Virus record (IMG/VR): IMGVR_UViG_3300046321_000141
Span: 1 to 64,000 of that record
Source: a virus
Strand: one strand, 5' to 3'
Length of the DNA: 64,000 nucleotides
The translations under genes were made by a program, and so were the position numbers. Below the pieces are notes generated by a model that had not been told where the DNA came from, made no database searches, and saw only the letters and a list, made by a program, of their open reading frames with translations. This document shows, piece by piece, positions 26,901 to 54,312 of this stretch (positions are counted from its first letter, which is position 1; every line of letters starts with the position of its first letter).

Positions 26901-29900
26901 AGTCCTTAAGTTTATTAAACAAGTTGTTTTTAATCTTTACATTAGGCAACTTCGTAGTAACGTTGTTCAATGCAGCAATTACTTGCTCAGATGCCAAACC
27001 GAATGCAGCAAAGCGTACTAGCTTCTGTTTATCCAAAGAATTAAACAAATAGTTGTGCAGAGCAGTTGTTTCTGCTTTTTCTGTCACGGTTGCACTATTC
27101 CAATCACCGTTGTACAAGTTTTCTACTTTTACTGAATCTCTGGCTTGTACAAATAACTTTTCCAGTGTTCTCCAGTATTTAAAGAACTCTGGGCGATTCA
27201 TTGCAACATCTAAAGTGATTGCAACCTGATCTACAACAAATGCTTCTTGTGCTGATAAGTTAAGTCCTGCATTTTGTATACCTGTTGCAATAGGCACCTC
27301 ATTATTATTCAAAGCATCTGCGTAGGTAGCTACCTCATCAATAGCAGTGTCCTGCATACGAGCAGAACTGAGGCTTCCAAACGGGCCATGTAGCTTCTCA
27401 ACTATGTTACTGAGCAGATTACTCAAGTGTGCTTGTGTGTCTGTCCTGAGTGGATTCTGAGCATCTGTAAGTGCGTTAAAAACATCTACAGTTGCGTGCG
27501 TGTACAAACCACTTGCTGTACGCATGGCTCTTGCTTCAGTAGCAACGTAAGCATTGTACTTAGCATCATTAATAAGGTTGGCACCTTCAACAAGCAAACC
27601 AAGCAAGGCATTGTTAAGTACACCTGTTTTACGCTTATCTACAGAACCATCTAGATTAAAACCAATAGCAAAAGAAAATGCTTTAACTACCGACTTAAGA
27701 AAGTCAATCAAAGGGTTGTTGTAGAAACTCTTAACTACTTTAGCATCTTTACTTATTTTTTTGGTTTTAAGAATGTCTTGAAATGTTTTACTGGTCAAAC
27801 CATAAGCAACAAACTCATCAACATTTTCAAACTGAGCATAAGTATTGTCGATAGCAACAAGTTTAGTAATATCTTCTTCTGTAAGTTGTTCTTGTACAGA
27901 CGCCATCAAATTCACGAGGTTATCGTAAGTTTGTTGCTGGTCTGCTGATACTTGCTTACCATTGCGGATAGCTTCCAAGTACCCCACAGTAACTGCATGG
28001 ATAGCTTCATGCAGTATTACTTCTGATGCTTTATTTTTACTGTTGAATACATAAATAGTATTACCAACTGTAAGAGCGTTTGCATTACTAAAGTCTTGTT
28101 TGCTGATAGCTTCTAAGTGTTCAGGACGCACATCTTGAATACTATCTACAGCATACACAGTTGTGTCTGTGCCTTTAAGCACACCTGCAAGCAACTTCTT
28201 GTACTCTGTAGGAATGTTTGTTTGGATGCGTTCTAGCAAGATATTCAAAGATATACCTGTCGCTGTCTTAGCTTCAGCCAAAAAGCTTTCAGGTGTATAG
28301 GTAGCAGGATACTCAGAGTCCTTGCTTTCTTCTACAGTAGTTATGACAGTGGCTTGTACTTCTTTTGGCTCAGCACCGATGCTAGCTTGTTTAGTCAACA
28401 GTTGACTAAGTGTTTTATTGTCTTCTCTTTGTTGTTTCTTAACTCGATCAATAACTGAATCAATGACTTTTAGGTCAGCGGTAGTAACTTCGTATGCACC
28501 ACCTTCAAAAGCATATTGGTTTATGTACTTGACACTTTTGAGAAATTCAAGTTTATGGTATGTACCCAAATAAGCTGTATTAGTAACTTCAATCAGTTTA
28601 GCTACATTCAATGATGGTTTGTACTCTGCATCTTGTGCAGCAAGTTCTAACTGAGCTTCAAAGTTTTTAATAGCCATTGAAGTAACAGCATTAACAGGAG
28701 AGTACTCAACCATGAGTTCAAGCGTTGCTTTGTTAAACTCAATAGCCATAGCCTTAGCATGTGCAAAGCCTGTACCGCCAGAGTCATGCATGTTGATAGA
28801 AGCAATACCCTGTTTAAAGAGTTCGTTCATGCGCTGGAACGATATAAAGGAATCTCCTGAGTGAGTACCAACCGAAGTACTCAAAACGCCTGGAGAGCCT
28901 TCTACACGCTTCTGTGAACTAGCAATACGGTGCTTATTGAAACCAGTAAGAAAAGGGTATGAACCAGTAACCATTGTCTTGTAGCTGGGATCATCGGTAG
29001 TAGCTTTGTCGCTAGATAGCAGTAACAGCCCTGCATCTGGTTCTTTACCCTTTTGGGAGTAGTAAGAATCCATTACAGGAGTAAAACCTTTAGTAAGTAA
29101 CTCAGACTCAATGTCTGCTAACTCTTCTTTAGTTAACCCCACATTTACTTCGCCTTTTACAAACTTTATACCTTTTTCTTTTAATTTCTTATCGGTAAAA
29201 AACTTTTTAGCTTTTATGTAGCCTTCAGCAGTTTGATTAGTTATGTTTGTAACATCATTGCGCTTTTCTATAAAGCTAGAGAAGTATTCTTTTAAAGCAG
29301 CTTCTATCAAGTTAGATAAACCACCCCCATCTTTACTATAAAAAGTATCTGTAATGGTTTTTCGTTCAGCAGTAGAGATGTACCAATTATTCTGAAGAGT
29401 TTCTAATGTTTGTTGCGAAACATCTAAACCAAGCTGCGTAAGGGCTTCTTTTATTTGGGTTTCTGCTTCTGGCTCACCATTCTTGTAACTTTCTGCAATC
29501 TTGTCGTAAATGTTTTCTTCCAAAGCACTAATGAAGTTAGTGCTAGCTTTGTACAAGCCACTACCAAACGATATTGGGTTGAATAAATCTTTTACTGACT
29601 GACGGTTTAGAAACTTGTCATCCCCATAGAAATACTTAAGCCCTTCGTATGCTTGGACACTTTTACCAACATGCTCACCTTTACTGATAGCGTCAGCTAA
29701 GTGATTTTTAATAAAGTTAGCACCGTGTGTATAAAAGTCCGTATTACCTACTTGTTCTAACCAAACATTAATGTCTTTGTCAGTATCAGTAGTAAAAAAA
29801 CCACCACGAGCAAACAACTCTTTAAATGATTGCTGTCCTGATGCGAGTCCCCATAGCAACTGAGTAAGGATAGGGCCATTACCAACTCCGTCTACTTCAG

Positions 29901-31767
29901 CCATTATGTCGGTTGAGTATATAGAGTCACCTGCTTCTACTGCCTGTAGGAAACCTACATATGCAAGCAAAGCATCAAGAGTCTTAGCCCGCTCACCTTT
30001 TTTAAGCCCAGCAGCCGTAACTAGTTCAAGAAGTGCATTACTCTCTTCTGTGGTGTAGTCAGCCTCCTCAGAATAGGCAATTGCTTGTATTGCTTTTTGT
30101 ACAAAATCTTGCTGTACAAAAGCTTCAAAACTACTCATTGAAGTACTGTTACTCTTTTTATCCGTGGCTATGCCGAAACCTTCTGCTACTCGCAGAAGAA
30201 ATGTTTCTTCAGATTTCACATCTCCAATTACTACATCACTATTCCATGATGGGGTAGTCATGTTGTAACGGTGTATTTTTACACTGGTTGGGTCAACACT
30301 GCTAGTGACACCCACACGAAGCATCTTCCACACGTCTGTAGATAGGTAGAAACCATTATAAGAATCACTGTCCCCAGCAACTTCATCAAAAGAGGCCAAA
30401 TCAGCTTGAATACCTTTATTAGCTGCTTCAGCACCTTTACGCTGACTCACTTGAAGTTCTGCAATCTCTTCTGGCGACTTAACACCCATCACAACTTCAC
30501 GTAACGACATCCCACCATATTCAGTGTTACGCAACTTCTCAAATACCTCAGCATTTTTTACTTTAAATGTGAAAGGAGTTGATTGAAATTGTTTAAGTAC
30601 TTCTTGCAGCATTTTTGGTACTGCTTGTCCTGTTTTTGTCTTTGTAGGTACTTTGCTTACTGGTTTATACGAAACATAGTTTTGTTTCTCTTCGTTACCA
30701 AAAAACCTTGCAAGTACATCTCTACTACCTTTGCTGGAATCAATAAGACTTTTTACACTTTTCTCTACAGCATCAGTTTGGCTTAGAGAGTAAAAAAACA
30801 TTTGTCGGTTATTTGCTTTGTCTTGCTCTTCTTTTGTCAAGGTTTCATAGCGACCGCTATCTTTAAGAAACTGTGCTTCATCAACACTATGAACCACTAC
30901 ATATCCAGGTTTATTTATGTTTCTAGGTTTATCTATGTTTTGCGCTCTAAGCAACTGATACACCTGAGCACCTAAAGATGTTTTCAGATTGGCTATGACG
31001 TTAGGTGATGCGCCTGCTTGATTCTTTAAACCAAGCAAGTTATATGCAGTACTGCCCCAACTAGCATAAGCATTGTTGGTTGTTATGCTGAATCCTTGAT
31101 ATGTATCGAATACATCTTTAGACACTGGGGCATCACGATTAAAGCCAAGCAAGCTATTAACCTGCTTAGTGTCGTTAACTGTAGTACCTAGGTCTTTGAC
31201 AGCCTCATAAGCAGCATATATGAGGGCTATCTGTATTGATTCAGGAGTAGCACCATTGACTACTAATTGACGAAACAAATCACTGTCAAAAAGTTTTTGG
31301 CTATCAAGATTGAGGGTAAGACCTCTATCAGCTTCATTTAGTGCAGCTGGAAAGAATGCTTGCTTAAAGTGACTCTTTTTAAGCTTTGCAGACATTTCTG
31401 TAGCAAATGTAGAAAAAGAATTAATAGCACCTTGCTCTGCATCAACAAGTGTTTCAATACCTAAACGCTCTTTAACTGCACTAGCCAACGTACCTTTTGT
31501 AGCCATTGAAACCAATTGATTAAACTGACTAACCGCAGAACCGAATACAGGTTGTACATGGTCACCAAGTTTGCCTTTTACTTCTGTACCTTTAGCAAAC
31601 AAACCAGAAGGTAATGCTGATACGAGCATTCCTTGTTTTAGCTCTGATATGGCGGAGTTAACTGCCGACTGTGCTCGTTTATCTGCATTACCTTTACTGG
31701 TTATATGCTCTGCTTTATCAGTCAAAGCATGGATTTCAGCATCGGAAAAGTTATCAAAACAGCTCAT
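23980..31767 (-). CDS. Virion-encapsulated RNA polymerase (N4 vRNAP-like)
   Basis: A 2595-residue protein. T7-family polymerase motifs are recognisable: motif A in EVDGVGNGP (Asp626), motif B in RQSVKDLFNPISFGSG (Arg722, Lys726, Phe734, Gly735) and motif C in MHDSGG (Asp995). The A-B and B-C distances (100 and 269) fit N4 vRNAP (111 and 281 as I recall) better than T7. A clean T/DxxGR motif is not seen; the region around Arg500 is the best candidate. The family tyrosine of motif B is Phe here. A HEAIH motif (1253-1257) with NVDEF (Glu1318) forms a zincin-like domain after the polymerase. The C-terminal 1200 residues are helical and probably serve packaging and ejection. N4 injects this enzyme to transcribe early genes. 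The N-terminal part before the polymerase is much shorter than the roughly 1000 residues of N4. Confidence 0.92.
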   Translation of the reverse strand: MSCFDNFSDAEIHALTDKAEHITSKGNADKRAQSAVNSAISELKQGMLVSALPSGLFAKGTEVKGKLGDHVQPVFGSAVSQFNQLVSMATKGTLASAVKERLGIETLVDAEQGAINSFSTFATEMSAKLKKSHFKQAFFPAALNEADRGLTLNLDSQKLFDSDLFRQLVVNGATPESIQIALIYAAYEAVKDLGTTVNDTKQVNSLLGFNRDAPVSKDVFDTYQGFSITTNNAYASWGSTAYNLLGLKNQAGASPNVIANLKTSLGAQVYQLLRAQNIDKPRNINKPGYVVVHSVDEAQFLKDSGRYETLTKEEQDKANNRQMFFYSLSQTDAVEKSVKSLIDSSKGSRDVLARFFGNEEKQNYVSYKPVSKVPTKTKTGQAVPKMLQEVLKQFQSTPFTFKVKNAEVFEKLRNTEYGGMSLREVVMGVKSPEEIAELQVSQRKGAEAANKGIQADLASFDEVAGDSDSYNGFYLSTDVWKMLRVGVTSSVDPTSVKIHRYNMTTPSWNSDVVIGDVKSEETFLLRVAEGFGIATDKKSNSTSMSSFEAFVQQDFVQKAIQAIAYSEEADYTTEESNALLELVTAAGLKKGERAKTLDALLAYVGFLQAVEAGDSIYSTDIMAEVDGVGNGPILTQLLWGLASGQQSFKELFARGGFFTTDTDKDINVWLEQVGNTDFYTHGANFIKNHLADAISKGEHVGKSVQAYEGLKYFYGDDKFLNRQSVKDLFNPISFGSGLYKASTNFISALEENIYDKIAESYKNGEPEAETQIKEALTQLGLDVSQQTLETLQNNWYISTAERKTITDTFYSKDGGGLSNLIEAALKEYFSSFIEKRNDVTNITNQTAEGYIKAKKFFTDKKLKEKGIKFVKGEVNVGLTKEELADIESELLTKGFTPVMDSYYSQKGKEPDAGLLLLSSDKATTDDPSYKTMVTGSYPFLTGFNKHRIASSQKRVEGSPGVLSTSVGTHSGDSFISFQRMNELFKQGIASINMHDSGGTGFAHAKAMAIEFNKATLELMVEYSPVNAVTSMAIKNFEAQLELAAQDAEYKPSLNVAKLIEVTNTAYLGTYHKLEFLKSVKYINQYAFEGGAYEVTTADLKVIDSVIDRVKKQQREDNKTLSQLLTKQASIGAEPKEVQATVITTVEESKDSEYPATYTPESFLAEAKTATGISLNILLERIQTNIPTEYKKLLAGVLKGTDTTVYAVDSIQDVRPEHLEAISKQDFSNANALTVGNTIYVFNSKNKASEVILHEAIHAVTVGYLEAIRNGKQVSADQQQTYDNLVNLMASVQEQLTEEDITKLVAIDNTYAQFENVDEFVAYGLTSKTFQDILKTKKISKDAKVVKSFYNNPLIDFLKSVVKAFSFAIGFNLDGSVDKRKTGVLNNALLGLLVEGANLINDAKYNAYVATEARAMRTASGLYTHATVDVFNALTDAQNPLRTDTQAHLSNLLSNIVEKLHGPFGSLSSARMQDTAIDEVATYADALNNNEVPIATGIQNAGLNLSAQEAFVVDQVAITLDVAMNRPEFFKYWRTLEKLFVQARDSVKVENLYNGDWNSATVTEKAETTALHNYLFNSLDKQKLVRFAAFGLASEQVIAALNNVTTKLPNVKIKNNLFNKLKDLFSKVLNTFVSFSTGVRNRQTMDTSISKLVNNLVAAEAQRQVALKKVQKINTLNTAMENASNKVKQVGLKVVRSKLATGTGLKKVPFIGQTLSPAVNVLAEAGEAVLTGTVQARMQGFMSLRNQYIHGRLGVAAGLFNEVLTSSNVKGAFVRLLQLTKQIEATREQDIEQTVNVLKKNFANEKRLTKEVKAGISTLLRTGIASSSYDAARTELLLTDAKHLDKEIASIKTKMQTESKGLTDFLAYRAEATAHYLMTGNSKDSTGTALNAAQVIAMNATPVAGKLAAKQAYLEPLVYDLVSLYALRHMSNASKVAAQSILKEENARGKDNGMSFTMAMHKALVQEAKDSLFKGSPHAMVHGYLPEVHNPNVHVIYIQDTATATTAQQTGRYLKAGYVSYGVLPKDPAQQKPVTMLVHKNLPETRRATGLFSVLDNKAKGAMLHDGDVTGLFGPYNQGLNQQADANRAAGYQAIKVKGFKFDSTGSSSMVPLVDEQGNTVNYRHVASEQFKNNVLQRNNDFSYLLGKLSGTTGEKLSSKEHNKTIVKALKELYDATYKGNERDFFLVGAKSKDAEYSGRYNELPYETRQEIESVWGDKGMYVRKDMLDMAFGYKKLTLGDSILQSKQDQILFTQGVTKVVEFLYARRGTVEQKYDARVRASVWMKQLQRATEEVVSEVKDFIVIKTGSVLVGNELSNLSLLYLNGMGIKEALQEKSRALSALNIYREQSQELNELQMYIATGTQVNKHPEFINRIGLLQESINKNPVKNLIDAGFMPTIVEDVETISQDYSYKGKLFEKLNKKADKAKSLGNLARNITSTLYMTENTGLYQFLRYSTQVSDFTARYALYQHLTKQNKLSEYEILKEITDSFVNYDVPSHRMIEAANSIGLLYFTKYFLRIQAPLFKAMREHPLRAMQLWLFDAYTSGIDIVTGSSFTARSWSPFQDGPFKFLDVVDETITAKAIGSSVSALVPGK

Positions 31768-34745
31768 TATGTTGCCTTAAGACATTCAAGTAATTCTTGG
31801 TATCTCTTCAAATCTTGCTTGATTTTTGAGAATGATTTATTGACTAAGTGTTGTGCAGGTAATGCACTTACTTTTGTACTGGTAGCTTGTTCAGAGCCTG
31901 TGTCATTAACAACTGCGCTGCTTGCCTCACTGTCTCTTGGGAGGCTGTCAGTTTTTTGCTTTGTAACAGCCTCTTGACTTTTTGTATCGACGCTTGATTC
32001 AGCTTTTCCAGTTGTATTTGTGTCAAGCCGTGTTTCAGTACTTTTAAGAATTGTGTTGTCATTTAGAAGTTCCGTAGCTAGTGTAACTAGCTCAGATTCT
32101 ATTTGTTTACCAGCAGCACTGTTAACAATATTATTTACAGCAGCAGTACTTACCTGTGTCTCAACTTGTCCAGATTCTGTTGGTTCTGTTCTGACACCTT
32201 CTTTTGTTGTTCCAACAACTTCTGGTCTTTTTTCTTCTGTTTGCTTGGTTTCAATGGTTTGTTTGCCATTATTTATCTCAATAGGTAAGTTTAATCTTGT
32301 AGCCATACCATTTAGTAATGGTGTAGCAACTTCTAGAGCTTTATTAATATTCTCTACTACTTTCTTAGCTCCGACCAATCCTTTTGTAATATCGAATGCA
32401 GTTTTTAAACCAGCTTGAGGTTTATCAGTAATTACGTAACTATTATCCACAGTTTTATAAATATACTGACCAACTTTTATTTTACTCAGCGCATCTGCTT
32501 TACTTTGTTGATTTTCATAAAAAGACTTAAATTTATCAAAAGAAGTTTGTTTAGCTCCTTGTGTGTCTGATTTATTAAAGTCTGCATAGTACTGTACAAA
32601 ACCTTTGAAGTTTTTACCTGGTGTAGTGCCTTGTTGCTTTGAGCCATACAAAACGGTGTTCTGTACATCTGAAGATGTCTTAATACCTAAAGCTGCTTTG
32701 TATTCAGCAGATACATTACGAAGCGTAGTAAGTTGCTCAGGGGTAGCTAAACCAGAGGCTATAACATTATCTATGGCAGCTACTACTTCAGGTGTAGGAG
32801 CAGCTTTAGAGCGCATAGCACGCACAACAAACCCAGCTACTGCCTGAGTATCTACAGATACATCAGAACCTGTCTTAGGGGCTGTAATAGCGTCTGCTAA
32901 AGCTACTAACTTATCTGGCGCAACCTCAGCAGTAGCCGCCGCTTCTAAACCAACAAATAAATTATTTACTTCTGTAAGCTGAGGATTCAGGATTGCAAGT
33001 TTTTTGTTTGCAATCTTTTCTTCTTTAGGGTCTACAGGCAAGTTGTAGAAAACATTTGCTGCTCCTATAAGCTTCTCTATCCGTGCTTTGTCTTTCGGGT
33101 CAGTAGCTTCAGAGAGTTGTTGTTGGTAGCCCTGCACAACCTCAGCAAGTAATTCCTGCTTACCCTCTGTAGTCATTTTTTTAAGGTTGTTAACTTCCTC
33201 TTCCAAAGGAATTAATACCTCTTCCTCAGCGCGCCTAATGTTCTCTTGTTTATCAGTGTCAGACTTACCATCTAAACTACTGTTTTTAACAAACACATCA
33301 ATAGCGTCAACCCACTGTTTCTTAGTTGCTTCTGCTGGTTTAAGGTACTCAGCAGGATCATTATTAGTAACAGCAGCTTCCTTATCTACTTTTAAAGGAG
33401 CAAACTTATCTTTAATAGCTCCAGCTACATCAGTGGCTGTATTAATAACAGCATCAGCAATAGCTACATCAGGTGCAGGAATACGCTTAACTACTTCATT
33501 AGCCAAACCAACAGCAACAGATGTTGGTTTAAGACCTGCACCAACTAAAGCACCTACGTTAAAGCTCTCTAAATCACTCGCAAAGTTGTTATCTTTATAG
33601 GTAGCAGCATTTTCTAATCTGCCTTGTACAGCCTCAGTGATGCCCTCTCCAGCAGCACTTACAGCAGCTTTACCTGTTGCCTTAGAAGCAGCTTTCGCTA
33701 GAGCCAGTGCAATATTAGTTGTATCAGCCGTAGCAATAGCAGCAGCCTTCACACCCGGTGCAATACCAAGTGCAAGATCGCCTACTGTCTCACTGGCTGT
33801 GGCTACTCCTGCAAGTCTGAGAGCATCGGAGCGTTCTTTGGATGTAGGTAGTCCTGAATTAGTTGTTGTTGCTTCTACTGACTGGTTATAAATATCAGAC
33901 CCATAAGCAGCATTAGTAAGTGCAGCAGCTACTTTACCTGAACCCAGGGAAAGTATGTTACCTGTCTGAGAAGCCAACAATTCAAGAGCACCAACAGGAT
34001 TATCTACAGCAGCAGGCACAAACGCTGCAATAGCTCCAGGAGCATTACTAAGGTACTCTCCAAATGCTTTAGCATATTGCCCTTTATCCAGTAGCTCTGA
34101 ACCTCTATCAAAACCAGCAATAGCGCCAGCATTACGCTTACGCAAATCAGTTATTAACTCATTGGTTTTAGTAGGATCAACCGTGTTGCTATTATCAAAG
34201 AACTCTCTTAAGTCCTTTGTATCACGTATCTTTGATTTCCAGTTTTCTAGCCGTTGTTGATTAGTCTGTGCCCCATTCAATCTTTCATAGTCTGCTATGG
34301 TCATTTGCTTACGCTTACTGGTTTCCCCAGCAGGTAAGCTAAGTAACTCTAAATCAGCAGGAGTGGCGGTTCCATTAACTCTCCTAGCATCAGCAGCAAT
34401 AACAGAGTCAGGAATGTTTGCTGATATGGCCAAACTCTGCAAAGCATTAAAAGCTGCCCCCATATTGCCAGAAACATTGCCAATAGAGTTACCCCCTATT
34501 ACAGCTAGGTTAGTACCTGTACGTAGTGCCCCACTATCTAAGCTAAGCCTACCAACAAAACTATCATTAGCTTGTTGGCGTAATTGCATGGCTTTGTTGA
34601 ACACACCATCTTGGTGTTTCTGTGCTGCTTCTTGAAGTTTTTGCAGCTTAAGCTGGTCGGCAGAAACTGAAGGAGAGTCAACAACACCTAAGTCATTGGA
34701 CGCTACTCTAGAATTTAAATAGTTAGTTAAATCAAACTCTGCCAT
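31767..34745 (-). CDS. Large internal virion/ejection protein
   Basis: A 992-residue protein starting MAEFDLTNYLNSRVASNDLG. The first 350 residues are helical and Ala/Gly-rich (GAIAAFVPAAVDNPVGALEL, AAVSAAGEGITEAVQGRLEN), typical of phage ejection proteins that cross membranes. The C-terminal 250 residues are low-complexity and Thr/Ser/Lys-rich. It lies directly upstream of the virion polymerase with a one-base overlap, the position of the N4 gp51/gp52 virion proteins, so it is probably co-injected. Confidence 0.65.
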   Translation of the reverse strand: MAEFDLTNYLNSRVASNDLGVVDSPSVSADQLKLQKLQEAAQKHQDGVFNKAMQLRQQANDSFVGRLSLDSGALRTGTNLAVIGGNSIGNVSGNMGAAFNALQSLAISANIPDSVIAADARRVNGTATPADLELLSLPAGETSKRKQMTIADYERLNGAQTNQQRLENWKSKIRDTKDLREFFDNSNTVDPTKTNELITDLRKRNAGAIAGFDRGSELLDKGQYAKAFGEYLSNAPGAIAAFVPAAVDNPVGALELLASQTGNILSLGSGKVAAALTNAAYGSDIYNQSVEATTTNSGLPTSKERSDALRLAGVATASETVGDLALGIAPGVKAAAIATADTTNIALALAKAASKATGKAAVSAAGEGITEAVQGRLENAATYKDNNFASDLESFNVGALVGAGLKPTSVAVGLANEVVKRIPAPDVAIADAVINTATDVAGAIKDKFAPLKVDKEAAVTNNDPAEYLKPAEATKKQWVDAIDVFVKNSSLDGKSDTDKQENIRRAEEEVLIPLEEEVNNLKKMTTEGKQELLAEVVQGYQQQLSEATDPKDKARIEKLIGAANVFYNLPVDPKEEKIANKKLAILNPQLTEVNNLFVGLEAAATAEVAPDKLVALADAITAPKTGSDVSVDTQAVAGFVVRAMRSKAAPTPEVVAAIDNVIASGLATPEQLTTLRNVSAEYKAALGIKTSSDVQNTVLYGSKQQGTTPGKNFKGFVQYYADFNKSDTQGAKQTSFDKFKSFYENQQSKADALSKIKVGQYIYKTVDNSYVITDKPQAGLKTAFDITKGLVGAKKVVENINKALEVATPLLNGMATRLNLPIEINNGKQTIETKQTEEKRPEVVGTTKEGVRTEPTESGQVETQVSTAAVNNIVNSAAGKQIESELVTLATELLNDNTILKSTETRLDTNTTGKAESSVDTKSQEAVTKQKTDSLPRDSEASSAVVNDTGSEQATSTKVSALPAQHLVNKSFSKIKQDLKRYQELLECLKAT

Positions 34746-52009: not shown

Positions 52010-53092
52010 ATGACAATGTTAAAGATAATTCAACAAGAGATTATTGAAAATACTTTTAATAGAAAGCTAATTAATCAAAAGATTAAAGAAGTTATTACTG
52101 ATGAGTATTCTGGGTTTATCAGTAGTGGGGTTAGGTTGCTTAGTGAGTGGTTGGGTTGCTCCTATTATTCTAGCAAGAATGTTAGGCTGGAGTTGGTTAA
52201 AGCTCTTGATCTTAAGGAGCTGGTTACCAAGATGCTTGTAGAGGTTGCTCACTGTCAACATGCTGAGTTGTTTACTTCGGTGAGTGCTAAGTTAGCTGGT
52301 GCATTGGGATGGACTGATAAACCAGATGCAATTAAAACAATGGCAGAGATGCTGGCAATAATTGCTGATACAGATGCATATGACATTAAAAGAAATGAAG
52401 TCAATTCATTTGTTATTAAGTCTAGGATGCAATTTAGTACAGAGTTAACTCAATTCATTGAAAACACTATGTATTTGCCACCAATGTTAGTTGAACCTCA
52501 TGAAGTTAAAACTAATATTGATACAGGTTATTTAACTCTAAAAGATTCACTTGTATTAGGTAAAGGTAACTTTCATACTGGCGATCTATGCCTAGATGCA
52601 ATAAACATTGCTAACAGTGTAAAGCTCAAGTTAGATACAGCTTTTGTGTCTAAAGTTGAGATGCTTTGTACATTTAAAGTCAAAGAGCAAGAGCAGTTAG
52701 ACCAGTTCAACACATTCAAAAAGAATAGCTACAAACTCATGTCATTGCTTGCTACCAATGGTAATGAGTTCTGGCTCACTCACAGGGTGGATAAGAGAGG
52801 TAGGTTGTACTCTCAAGGCTATCACGTACATACTCAATCTAATGCATTTGGTAAATCTTGTATTGAGTTTGCCGATGAAGAGGTGGTTATTGTGCCAGCT
52901 GAGTACAGTATGGATTACTGGCTTAAAGACGGTAAATTACAAGAAACCATGTCACTAGATACACCTTATGGTGTGACATGTTGGAGCAGCTTTCATGAGT
53001 CTTTTGGTGTAAGAGATATGGGCAATTTCCATATTACGTTACCTGAAGAAGTATCAGAAGAATTGAAAACTTTATTAAAAGGAATTGTATGA
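52010..53092 (+). CDS. RNA polymerase II subunit 1 (N-terminal part of a T7-like RNAP; N4 gp15-like)
   Basis: A 360-residue protein corresponding to the N-terminal half of a single-subunit RNA polymerase. The DxxGR motif, which contacts the RNA:DNA hybrid, is VDKRGRLYSQ (Asp261-Arg265) and lies near the end of the recognisable core. The ATG at 52010 follows AAGGAGTAAAC. The stop overlaps the next gene by ATGA, so equal synthesis of both halves is likely. In N4 the homologous gp15/gp16 pair forms the heterodimer that transcribes middle genes. Confidence 0.88.
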   Translation: MTMLKIIQQEIIENTFNRKLINQKIKEVITDEYSGFISSGVRLLSEWLGCSYYSSKNVRLELVKALDLKELVTKMLVEVAHCQHAELFTSVSAKLAGALGWTDKPDAIKTMAEMLAIIADTDAYDIKRNEVNSFVIKSRMQFSTELTQFIENTMYLPPMLVEPHEVKTNIDTGYLTLKDSLVLGKGNFHTGDLCLDAINIANSVKLKLDTAFVSKVEMLCTFKVKEQEQLDQFNTFKKNSYKLMSLLATNGNEFWLTHRVDKRGRLYSQGYHVHTQSNAFGKSCIEFADEEVVIVPAEYSMDYWLKDGKLQETMSLDTPYGVTCWSSFHESFGVRDMGNFHITLPEEVSEELKTLLKGIV

Positions 53093-54312
53093 AACATTAT
53101 TCAGCGTGGGAATGGTTACTGATTGATTGTGCTAACCAATATGGTTTAGATAAACAATTGTTTGAAACCAGGATTAAATGGACATTGGCTAACCTTCACC
53201 AATTGGAAAGTATTTGTGATCATCAGTGGAAAGAGAAGCCTTTGTATTTGAAGGCTGTAGGGGCTATTCGTAAGGCTCAGAAAGGTATTCCTACTGGTCA
53301 TATGGTTGCAGTTGATAGCAGTGCTTCAGGTGCTCAGTTAATGAGTGCAATGACCAATTGCATTGCTGGAGCTATGGCTACTGGTCTGATTGATCCTAAT
53401 AAACGTGCCGATCTTTATACAGAAACCACTGTAGAAATGAACAGTATGTTGCATGAGTCTGGTATCAGTGTTGATGTACCAAGGGCTGATATGAAGCAAG
53501 CAGTAATGACTGTTTTGTATGGGTCGAAGGCTGAACCTAAGAAGCTATTTGGTGAAGATACTACTGAACTTACTACCTTTTATAAGGTGTTGAGTAAGGT
53601 AGTACCTGGTGCAATGTTCTTGTTGCAAGACTTGTTGGAAGCATGGAATAGTTACTCTAAAGTGCATCAGTGGCAAATGCCTGATGGATTTGAGGCAGTT
53701 ATTAAGGTAATGGAGACCAAAGATTGTAGGATTGAGATTGATGAGCTTGCTCACACTCAATTGAGCTATCAATACAAGGTTAATGAAGGAACTAAGAGGG
53801 GCTTGTCCATTGCGGCTAACGCAATACACAGCGTCGATGCTATGGTTGTCAGAGCCATGCACAGGAAGTGTAACTATGACCCTGTAATGGTAAATGCTGC
53901 TTATGAAGCTATCTGTACAGCTTTGGATATGGAGGGTGCAGAAGCCAAGGGTAAAGTAGCCTACTACAGTGAGTTGTATGAGGCTTCTAAGCTAGCTGAT
54001 GTAGTGGCATTGCCTTGGATAGTAGATGATGCTACTGGCTTGTCTAAGCAGCATTTACAGGCTCTTAAGAAGCTTTGCTTAGATATGTTGCAGCACAAAC
54101 CATTCCCTATTGTGAGTATCCATGATGCATTTGCTAGTACTGCTGGTAATGTAAATTGGATACGCTATCACTATAAAGAAACTGTTGCAGATATTGCTGC
54201 TTCAGATATTCTGAGCTTTCTATTTAGTCAGTTATTGCATAAATCCGTTACATATCAAAAGCTTGGGGATATTAGTGAGCAGATTCGTAATAGTGAATAT
54301 GCTGTTTGTTAA
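53089..54312 (+). CDS. RNA polymerase II subunit 2 (catalytic part; N4 gp16-like)
   Basis: A 407-residue protein with the remaining catalytic motifs of T7-like polymerases: motif A VAVDSSASGAQ (Asp76), motif B RADMKQAVMTVLYGSK (Arg132, Lys136, Tyr144) and motif C IHDAFAS (Asp346). Tyr144 is the usual nucleotide-sugar-selecting tyrosine. The length is almost that of N4 gp16. It needs subunit 1 for the DxxGR motif and promoter-side elements. A GCACTCCGTGC stem-loop follows the stop. Confidence 0.92.
   Translation: MKHYSAWEWLLIDCANQYGLDKQLFETRIKWTLANLHQLESICDHQWKEKPLYLKAVGAIRKAQKGIPTGHMVAVDSSASGAQLMSAMTNCIAGAMATGLIDPNKRADLYTETTVEMNSMLHESGISVDVPRADMKQAVMTVLYGSKAEPKKLFGEDTTELTTFYKVLSKVVPGAMFLLQDLLEAWNSYSKVHQWQMPDGFEAVIKVMETKDCRIEIDELAHTQLSYQYKVNEGTKRGLSIAANAIHSVDAMVVRAMHRKCNYDPVMVNAAYEAICTALDMEGAEAKGKVAYYSELYEASKLADVVALPWIVDDATGLSKQHLQALKKLCLDMLQHKPFPIVSIHDAFASTAGNVNWIRYHYKETVADIAASDILSFLFSQLLHKSVTYQKLGDISEQIRNSEYAVC

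Follow-up and report, generated by a model that had tools for sequence, protein, structure and literature searches.

Phenylalanine at the sugar-selection site of a Schitoviridae virion RNA polymerase, and its pairing with histidine

RNA polymerases of the single-subunit T7 type usually, although not obligatorily, carry a tyrosine at position 639 of motif B, where the sugar of the incoming nucleotide is discriminated. The virion RNA polymerase (vRNAP) encoded in the window, the 64-kb stretch analysed here out of a 69,315-base IMG/VR virus record, has Phe734 instead, which raises the question of whether this enzyme selects its substrates differently from Tyr-bearing relatives. A first-pass annotation had proposed that the injected enzyme might tolerate dNTPs or make mixed RNA/DNA early transcripts or primers. 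Close relatives of the phage were found neither by megablast among phage records nor by vRNAP or RNAP II peptide patterns in IMG/VR.

By sequence comparison, the gene (ORF B) is that of a Schitoviridae virion RNA polymerase of the N4 gp50 family: residues 75–2575, and with them the polymerase and C-terminal domains, match phrog_2206 (virion RNA polymerase) with E = 0 and 1130 bits, and the N4 vRNAP is matched with E 5e-33. Motifs A, B and C are complete, with D626, R722, K726 and D995 all present. The AlphaFold model of the polymerase domain, residues 80–1190 (pLDDT 82.8, pTM 0.82), has as its nearest solved fold the N4 mini-vRNAP (PDB 2po4; VIA-align Z 29.5 over 898 residues), followed by T7 RNAP (Z up to 21.7), and ORF B is a T7-type single-subunit RNA polymerase by both the fold of this domain and its motifs.

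Motif B, NRQSVKDLFNPISFG, is laid out as R722-QSV-K726-DLFNPIS-F734-G735-SG, the four numbered residues falling in the 2595-residue frame where the first-pass annotation had put them. Against 17 vRNAPs from phage isolates, F734 aligns with the Tyr in N4 RGIAKNPLTITIYGSG; this residue is Tyr678 in mini-vRNAP numbering and corresponds to T7 Tyr639 (PMC3715699, PMC2784036). Sequence identity to N4 is only about 17% here, which could favour a misalignment, with some other Tyr occupying the sugar site, and a one-sequence profile comparison with T7 left motif B unaligned, the position call being based on N4 and on the fold. The spacing of the Arg, Lys and Gly is, however, invariant across all covered rows. 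Phe734 is residue 655 of the model, directly after the helix (643–654) that bears R722 and K726, much as Tyr639 of T7 RNAP is placed on the O-helix, and no other Tyr fits the site. With the fold matching those of N4 and T7, a misalignment is refuted as far as modelling goes and is extremely unlikely. Residue numbering, the TTT codon, alignment and model thus agree on Phe at the place of T7 Tyr639, as had been claimed.

Table 1. Coordinates of the vRNAP and RNAP II features in the window.
Feature	Position	Strand	Evidence
ORF B, virion RNA polymerase, polymerase and C-terminal domains, 2595 aa	23980..31767	(-)	phrog_2206; PDB N4 vRNAP matches
Single-subunit RNA polymerase domain, residues 80–1190, modelled	28198..31530	(-)	AF2
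Asp995, motif C catalytic Asp (MHDS)	28783..28785	(-)	alignment
His969, T7 His784 position (THSGDS)	28861..28863	(-)	alignment
Motif B (R722, K726, F734, G735)	29563..29607	(-)	translation, alignment
Phe734 codon TTT, N4 Tyr678 / T7 Tyr639 position	29566..29568	(-)	alignment
Gly631, counterpart of T7 Gly542 (motif A D626-G-V-G-N-G631)	29875..29877	(-)	alignment
Asp626, motif A catalytic Asp	29890..29892	(-)	alignment
Cys3, sole cysteine of ORF B	31759..31761	(-)	
Junction (TAATG), where the TAA of ORF A overlaps the AAGG-N7-ATG start of ORF B	31765..31778	(-)	
ORF A, 992 aa, vRNAP N-terminal (ejection/membrane) domain encoded separately	31767..34745	(-)	hhalign
Cys988, sole cysteine of ORF A, fifth residue from its end	31782..31784	(-)	
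Tyr144 of RNAP II subunit (RxxxKxxxxxxxYGSK); His247 at T7 His784 position	53518..53520	(+)	

The Phe itself is not peculiar to this phage. In a survey of 217 vRNAP segments (five IMG/VR scans with alignments plus 17 phage records), with residue states read from the alignment, the site is Tyr in 136, Phe in 78, about a third, and unread in 3; 77 vRNAPs besides that of the window therefore have Phe, and the catalytic Asp, Arg, Lys and Asp are intact in each row with the column covered. The isolated phages LUZ7, LIT1, phCDa and Littlefix are among those in the Phe state. Ceyssens et al. described the ‘Y678F substitution’ in the Pseudomonas N4-like phages LUZ7, LIT1 and PEV2 in 2010 (PMC3715699), a full-text literature search returned no other phage paper on Y678F, and Tyr678 is reported for roseophage vRNAPs (PMC2784036). 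Dereplication at 80% identity left 132 vRNAPs, for which a maximum-likelihood tree was built without the Tyr/Phe and His784-position columns. On this tree Tyr and Phe must have interchanged a minimum of 11 times, and strongly supported branches make 5 of these changes necessary, so that Phe is not the mark of one clade; the window forms a long branch inside a strongly supported set of 57 members, mostly Phe/His. The Phe codons are TTT in 33 and TTC in 19 cases, and the use of both, together with the number of changes, indicates that Phe is of long standing among these enzymes. The variant is natural and widespread, known and common rather than a one-off, and the notion that the phage is special for its Phe has to be given up.

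The new element is what accompanies the Phe. Among the 132 dereplicated vRNAPs, the residues at the T7 Tyr639 and His784 positions pair as Phe/His in 52, Tyr/Gly in 41, Tyr/Gln in 25, Tyr/His in 12, Tyr/Thr in 1 and Tyr/Ala in 1, and not one of the 52 Phe enzymes is without His. The aligner had put the neighbouring Ile in the His784 column of N4-type rows, and for these rows the residue was taken by eye from three places ahead of the conserved Asp. Among 429 well-filled columns, many of which follow the tree, none predicts Phe by itself as well as position 969 does (phi 0.83). A model in which the two traits depend on each other is preferred over an independent one (LR 33, 4 df, p about 1e-6, with one rate at its limit). 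Restricted to strongly supported branches, an independent-pair test gave 5 pairs, too few for significance, of which 4 were concordant and 0 opposed (p 0.125).

Contigs of bacterial genomes, scanned later, agree with the survey, with Phe/His in L227 and L228 and Tyr/His in L226 and L229. Two long contigs, from Xenophilus (L225, 914 kb) and Alteromonas (L229, 233 kb), carry N4-type vRNAP genes and are possible proviruses; motif B of the former is window-like, RNLMKDAMNPLAFGSA, and its frame stops shortly downstream. On contigs of Candidatus Gracilibacteria and Falkowbacteria (L231, L232), weak matches of vRNAP type (25%, E about 1e-7) hint at N4-type polymerases in Patescibacteria, far beyond the usual hosts.

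The site is indeed one of sugar discrimination, as the first-pass annotation had held, and Tyr to Phe lowers that discrimination in T7 and Syn5 RNAPs (PMC4551944; PMC4538805). Syn5 RNAP, although it bears Tyr, discriminates only weakly against 2'-F-dNTPs by nature (PMC4538805), so one residue alone is no predictor of selectivity. In T7 RNAP, His784 has been described as hydrogen-bonding the 2'-OH, with Gly542 giving it room (PMC11617373); in another view, Tyr639 bonds the 2'-OH and His784 contacts the minor groove (PMC4551944). Both partners have counterparts in the window, His969 and Gly631, and the last Gly of DGxTNG is invariant in alignments of 18 and 40 rows. The proposal that Phe by itself predicts a dNTP-tolerant enzyme is therefore unsupported, since these counterparts are kept and His is never lost with Phe, and mixed RNA/DNA transcripts or primers are speculation.

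The reading we favour, and consider reasonably probable, is that of an ordinary and probably active N4-type vRNAP whose motif-B aromatic is Phe, the other long-lived state in Schitoviridae vRNAPs being Tyr, and in which the sugar is predicted to be read mainly through His969 together with Gly631. Phe would still stack beneath the incoming sugar and move with the O-helix, His969 would read the 2'-OH by a hydrogen bond of the His784 type, and Gly631, like Gly542, would leave space for that hydroxyl. In Tyr enzymes, the Tyr hydroxyl may allow the His to be dispensed with, Gln or Gly standing there in most. The vRNAPs would thereby retain at least one of two 2'-OH contacts, and Phe enzymes could not lose the His. 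T7 Y639F is relaxed with His784 intact, and by this token selectivity in vitro against dNTPs and 2'-F-dNTPs would be expected to fall somewhat short of that of a Tyr enzyme. Cells hold rNTPs in large excess over dNTPs; given that excess, early transcripts would be expected to be ordinary RNA. Against this reading, the T7 mutant has the same Phe and His and is clearly relaxed, so that in T7 the His alone does not give back full selection, and the minor-groove role assigned to His784 (PMC4551944) is a different one. A selectivity assay on any natural Phe vRNAP was not found in the literature.

The same observations can be read in other ways. If the Phe enzymes were fully as selective as Tyr ones, the pocket having co-evolved around them (His969 and positions 809, 973 and 731), a strict Phe/His pairing would be expected, as would position 969 as the top associated column, with others near the site coming after it; most of the other associated columns, however, may merely track the tree, and the relaxation of T7 Y639F despite its retained His784 argues against such compensation, which we regard as rather doubtful. 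Neutral drift, in which the two aromatics are almost interchangeable and the coupling to His is mostly inherited, fits the number of Tyr/Phe changes, codons one base apart (TAT/TTT) and the fact that just 5 independent pairs are strongly supported, but it sits poorly with His accompanying Phe in 52 of 52 cases and with the strong preference for the dependent model, and is unlikely.

That Phe is instead an adaptation for low sugar selectivity, by which the enzyme would make mixed RNA/DNA early transcripts or primers, draws on the nature of the site, on the relaxing effect of the change in T7 and Syn5 RNAPs and on the retention of Phe over long times. The N4 vRNAP is, moreover, needed for N4 DNA replication according to work cited in PMC2784036, a statement which, as given there, keeps the primer idea alive but says nothing for dNTP use. 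Against such an adaptation stand the kept counterparts of His784 and Gly542, and the Tyr state of phages closely related to Phe ones, such as L026, L028 and L045, from which it seems that no lifestyle requires Phe; this adaptation is highly improbable.

In its general form, the favoured reading becomes an either/or rule, offered tentatively: the vRNAP family would keep either the hydroxyl of a Tyr639-type residue or a His784-type contact, never neither, and the Phe enzymes might make up a sizeable class in nature that recognises the 2'-OH solely by way of His and shows measurably greater tolerance of 2'-deoxy and 2'-F nucleotides. In place of a unique Phe there is now a pattern, in which the swap known from T7 Y639F has been made repeatedly in nature, always with the His784-type residue kept. 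Dozens of natural Phe/His enzymes are thereby available as material for the study of sugar selection, and they may prove to be new tools for 2'-modified RNA.

In its second polymerase, the phage retains Tyr in the YGSK motif, as the first-pass annotation had noted; the residue at this site is also Tyr in T7 and in each of the six relatives checked, which were RNAP II or autographivirus enzymes. This RNAP II subunit, encoded at 53089–54312 (+), has up to 46% identity to known phages, the best being Kc283. The polymerase region of the vRNAP has approximately 25% identity to its nearest relatives, and the virion polymerase has thus diverged much further than the RNAP II subunit.

A further departure from the family lies upstream of the polymerase domain. 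Relatives carry the N-terminal domain (NTD), polymerase and C-terminal domain in one frame, usually, although not obligatorily, as a single chain of about 3,100–3,500 residues; in the window this chain is absent and there are two ORFs of 992 and 2595 residues. Residues 1–756 of ORF A are matched by a profile built from vRNAP N-termini of the LUZ7/LIT1 type (hhalign probability 99.7, E 8.5e-27), and the start of ORF A, MAEFDLTNYLNSR, resembles that of LUZ7, MADFDLDSFLDAR. The cut falls at the counterpart of the linker, approximately 100 residues long, that joins the NTD to the polymerase in N4 (PMC12633501). An AAGG precedes the ATG of ORF B by seven bases, a spacing found in several other genes of the phage, and the presence of this ribosome-binding site makes a read error at the junction less likely, the evidence being one contig. 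Programmed frameshifting was considered and rejected: a stop codon lies in the frame of ORF B 12 bases ahead of the ATG, no slippery heptamer is visible at the junction, and ORF B is provided with its own start.

Split vRNAP annotations in pSb-1 and AD45-P1 have been ascribed to gene calling or read-through (PMC10654107). In the survey, the vRNAP frames of L115, L160, L199, L192, L184, L037 and L197 are broken or shortened in or near the polymerase domain, mostly in a frameshift-like manner. Five of these (L199, L192, L184, L115 and L037) were rejected as true split vRNAPs: their breaks are between overlapping frames, mostly inside the polymerase domain, that of L199 adjoins an unread base, and the splits look like sequencing frameshifts, which the window junction does not. 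Judged by its sequence, the giant polymerase of the window seems to be made naturally in two pieces, a feature perhaps more novel than its Phe.

The two pieces also break with the usual, although not obligatory, absence of cysteine. Of the vRNAP open frames surveyed, 81 of 85 are cysteine-free, as is N4, and this avoidance has been linked to passage through the envelope (PMC3715699; PMC2784036). The window has one cysteine per half, and both lie at the cut. The chance of both being so near it is approximately 6e-6 if one cysteine is placed at random in each half, and approximately 0.035 if both 25-residue tails are merely exempt from the anti-cysteine rule. In the one contig available, the arrangement suggests that a disulfide may re-join the halves after loss of the peptide link; relaxed tails, in which cysteines are tolerated at the cut and have no disulfide role, are the weaker reading. 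If real, the disulfide would bear on how vRNAPs cross the cell envelope, and the split gene and its pair of cysteines merit separate study.

Among known systems, the vRNAPs of LUZ7, LIT1 and PEV2 (Schitoviridae, Migulavirinae) resemble that of the window in having Phe at the N4 Tyr678 place, His at the His784 position and the same fold, and differ in being one uncut protein of approximately 3,400 residues without cysteine, at about 25% identity. N4 gp50, or its mini-vRNAP, shares the domain order, motifs A, B and C and the polymerase fold (PDB 2po4, 3c2p and 9pnq), whereas it has Tyr678, a Gly at the place of T7 His784 and a single cysteine-free chain of 3500 residues. Syn5 RNAP is likewise a single-subunit phage RNAP, one studied for its sugar selectivity, and unlike the window enzyme it combines Tyr with naturally weak discrimination against 2'-F-dNTPs. 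T7 RNAP Y639F has the same Phe, His and Gly at its sugar site; it is engineered, belongs to another family and uses no hairpin promoters, and the effect of the change has been measured in T7 only.
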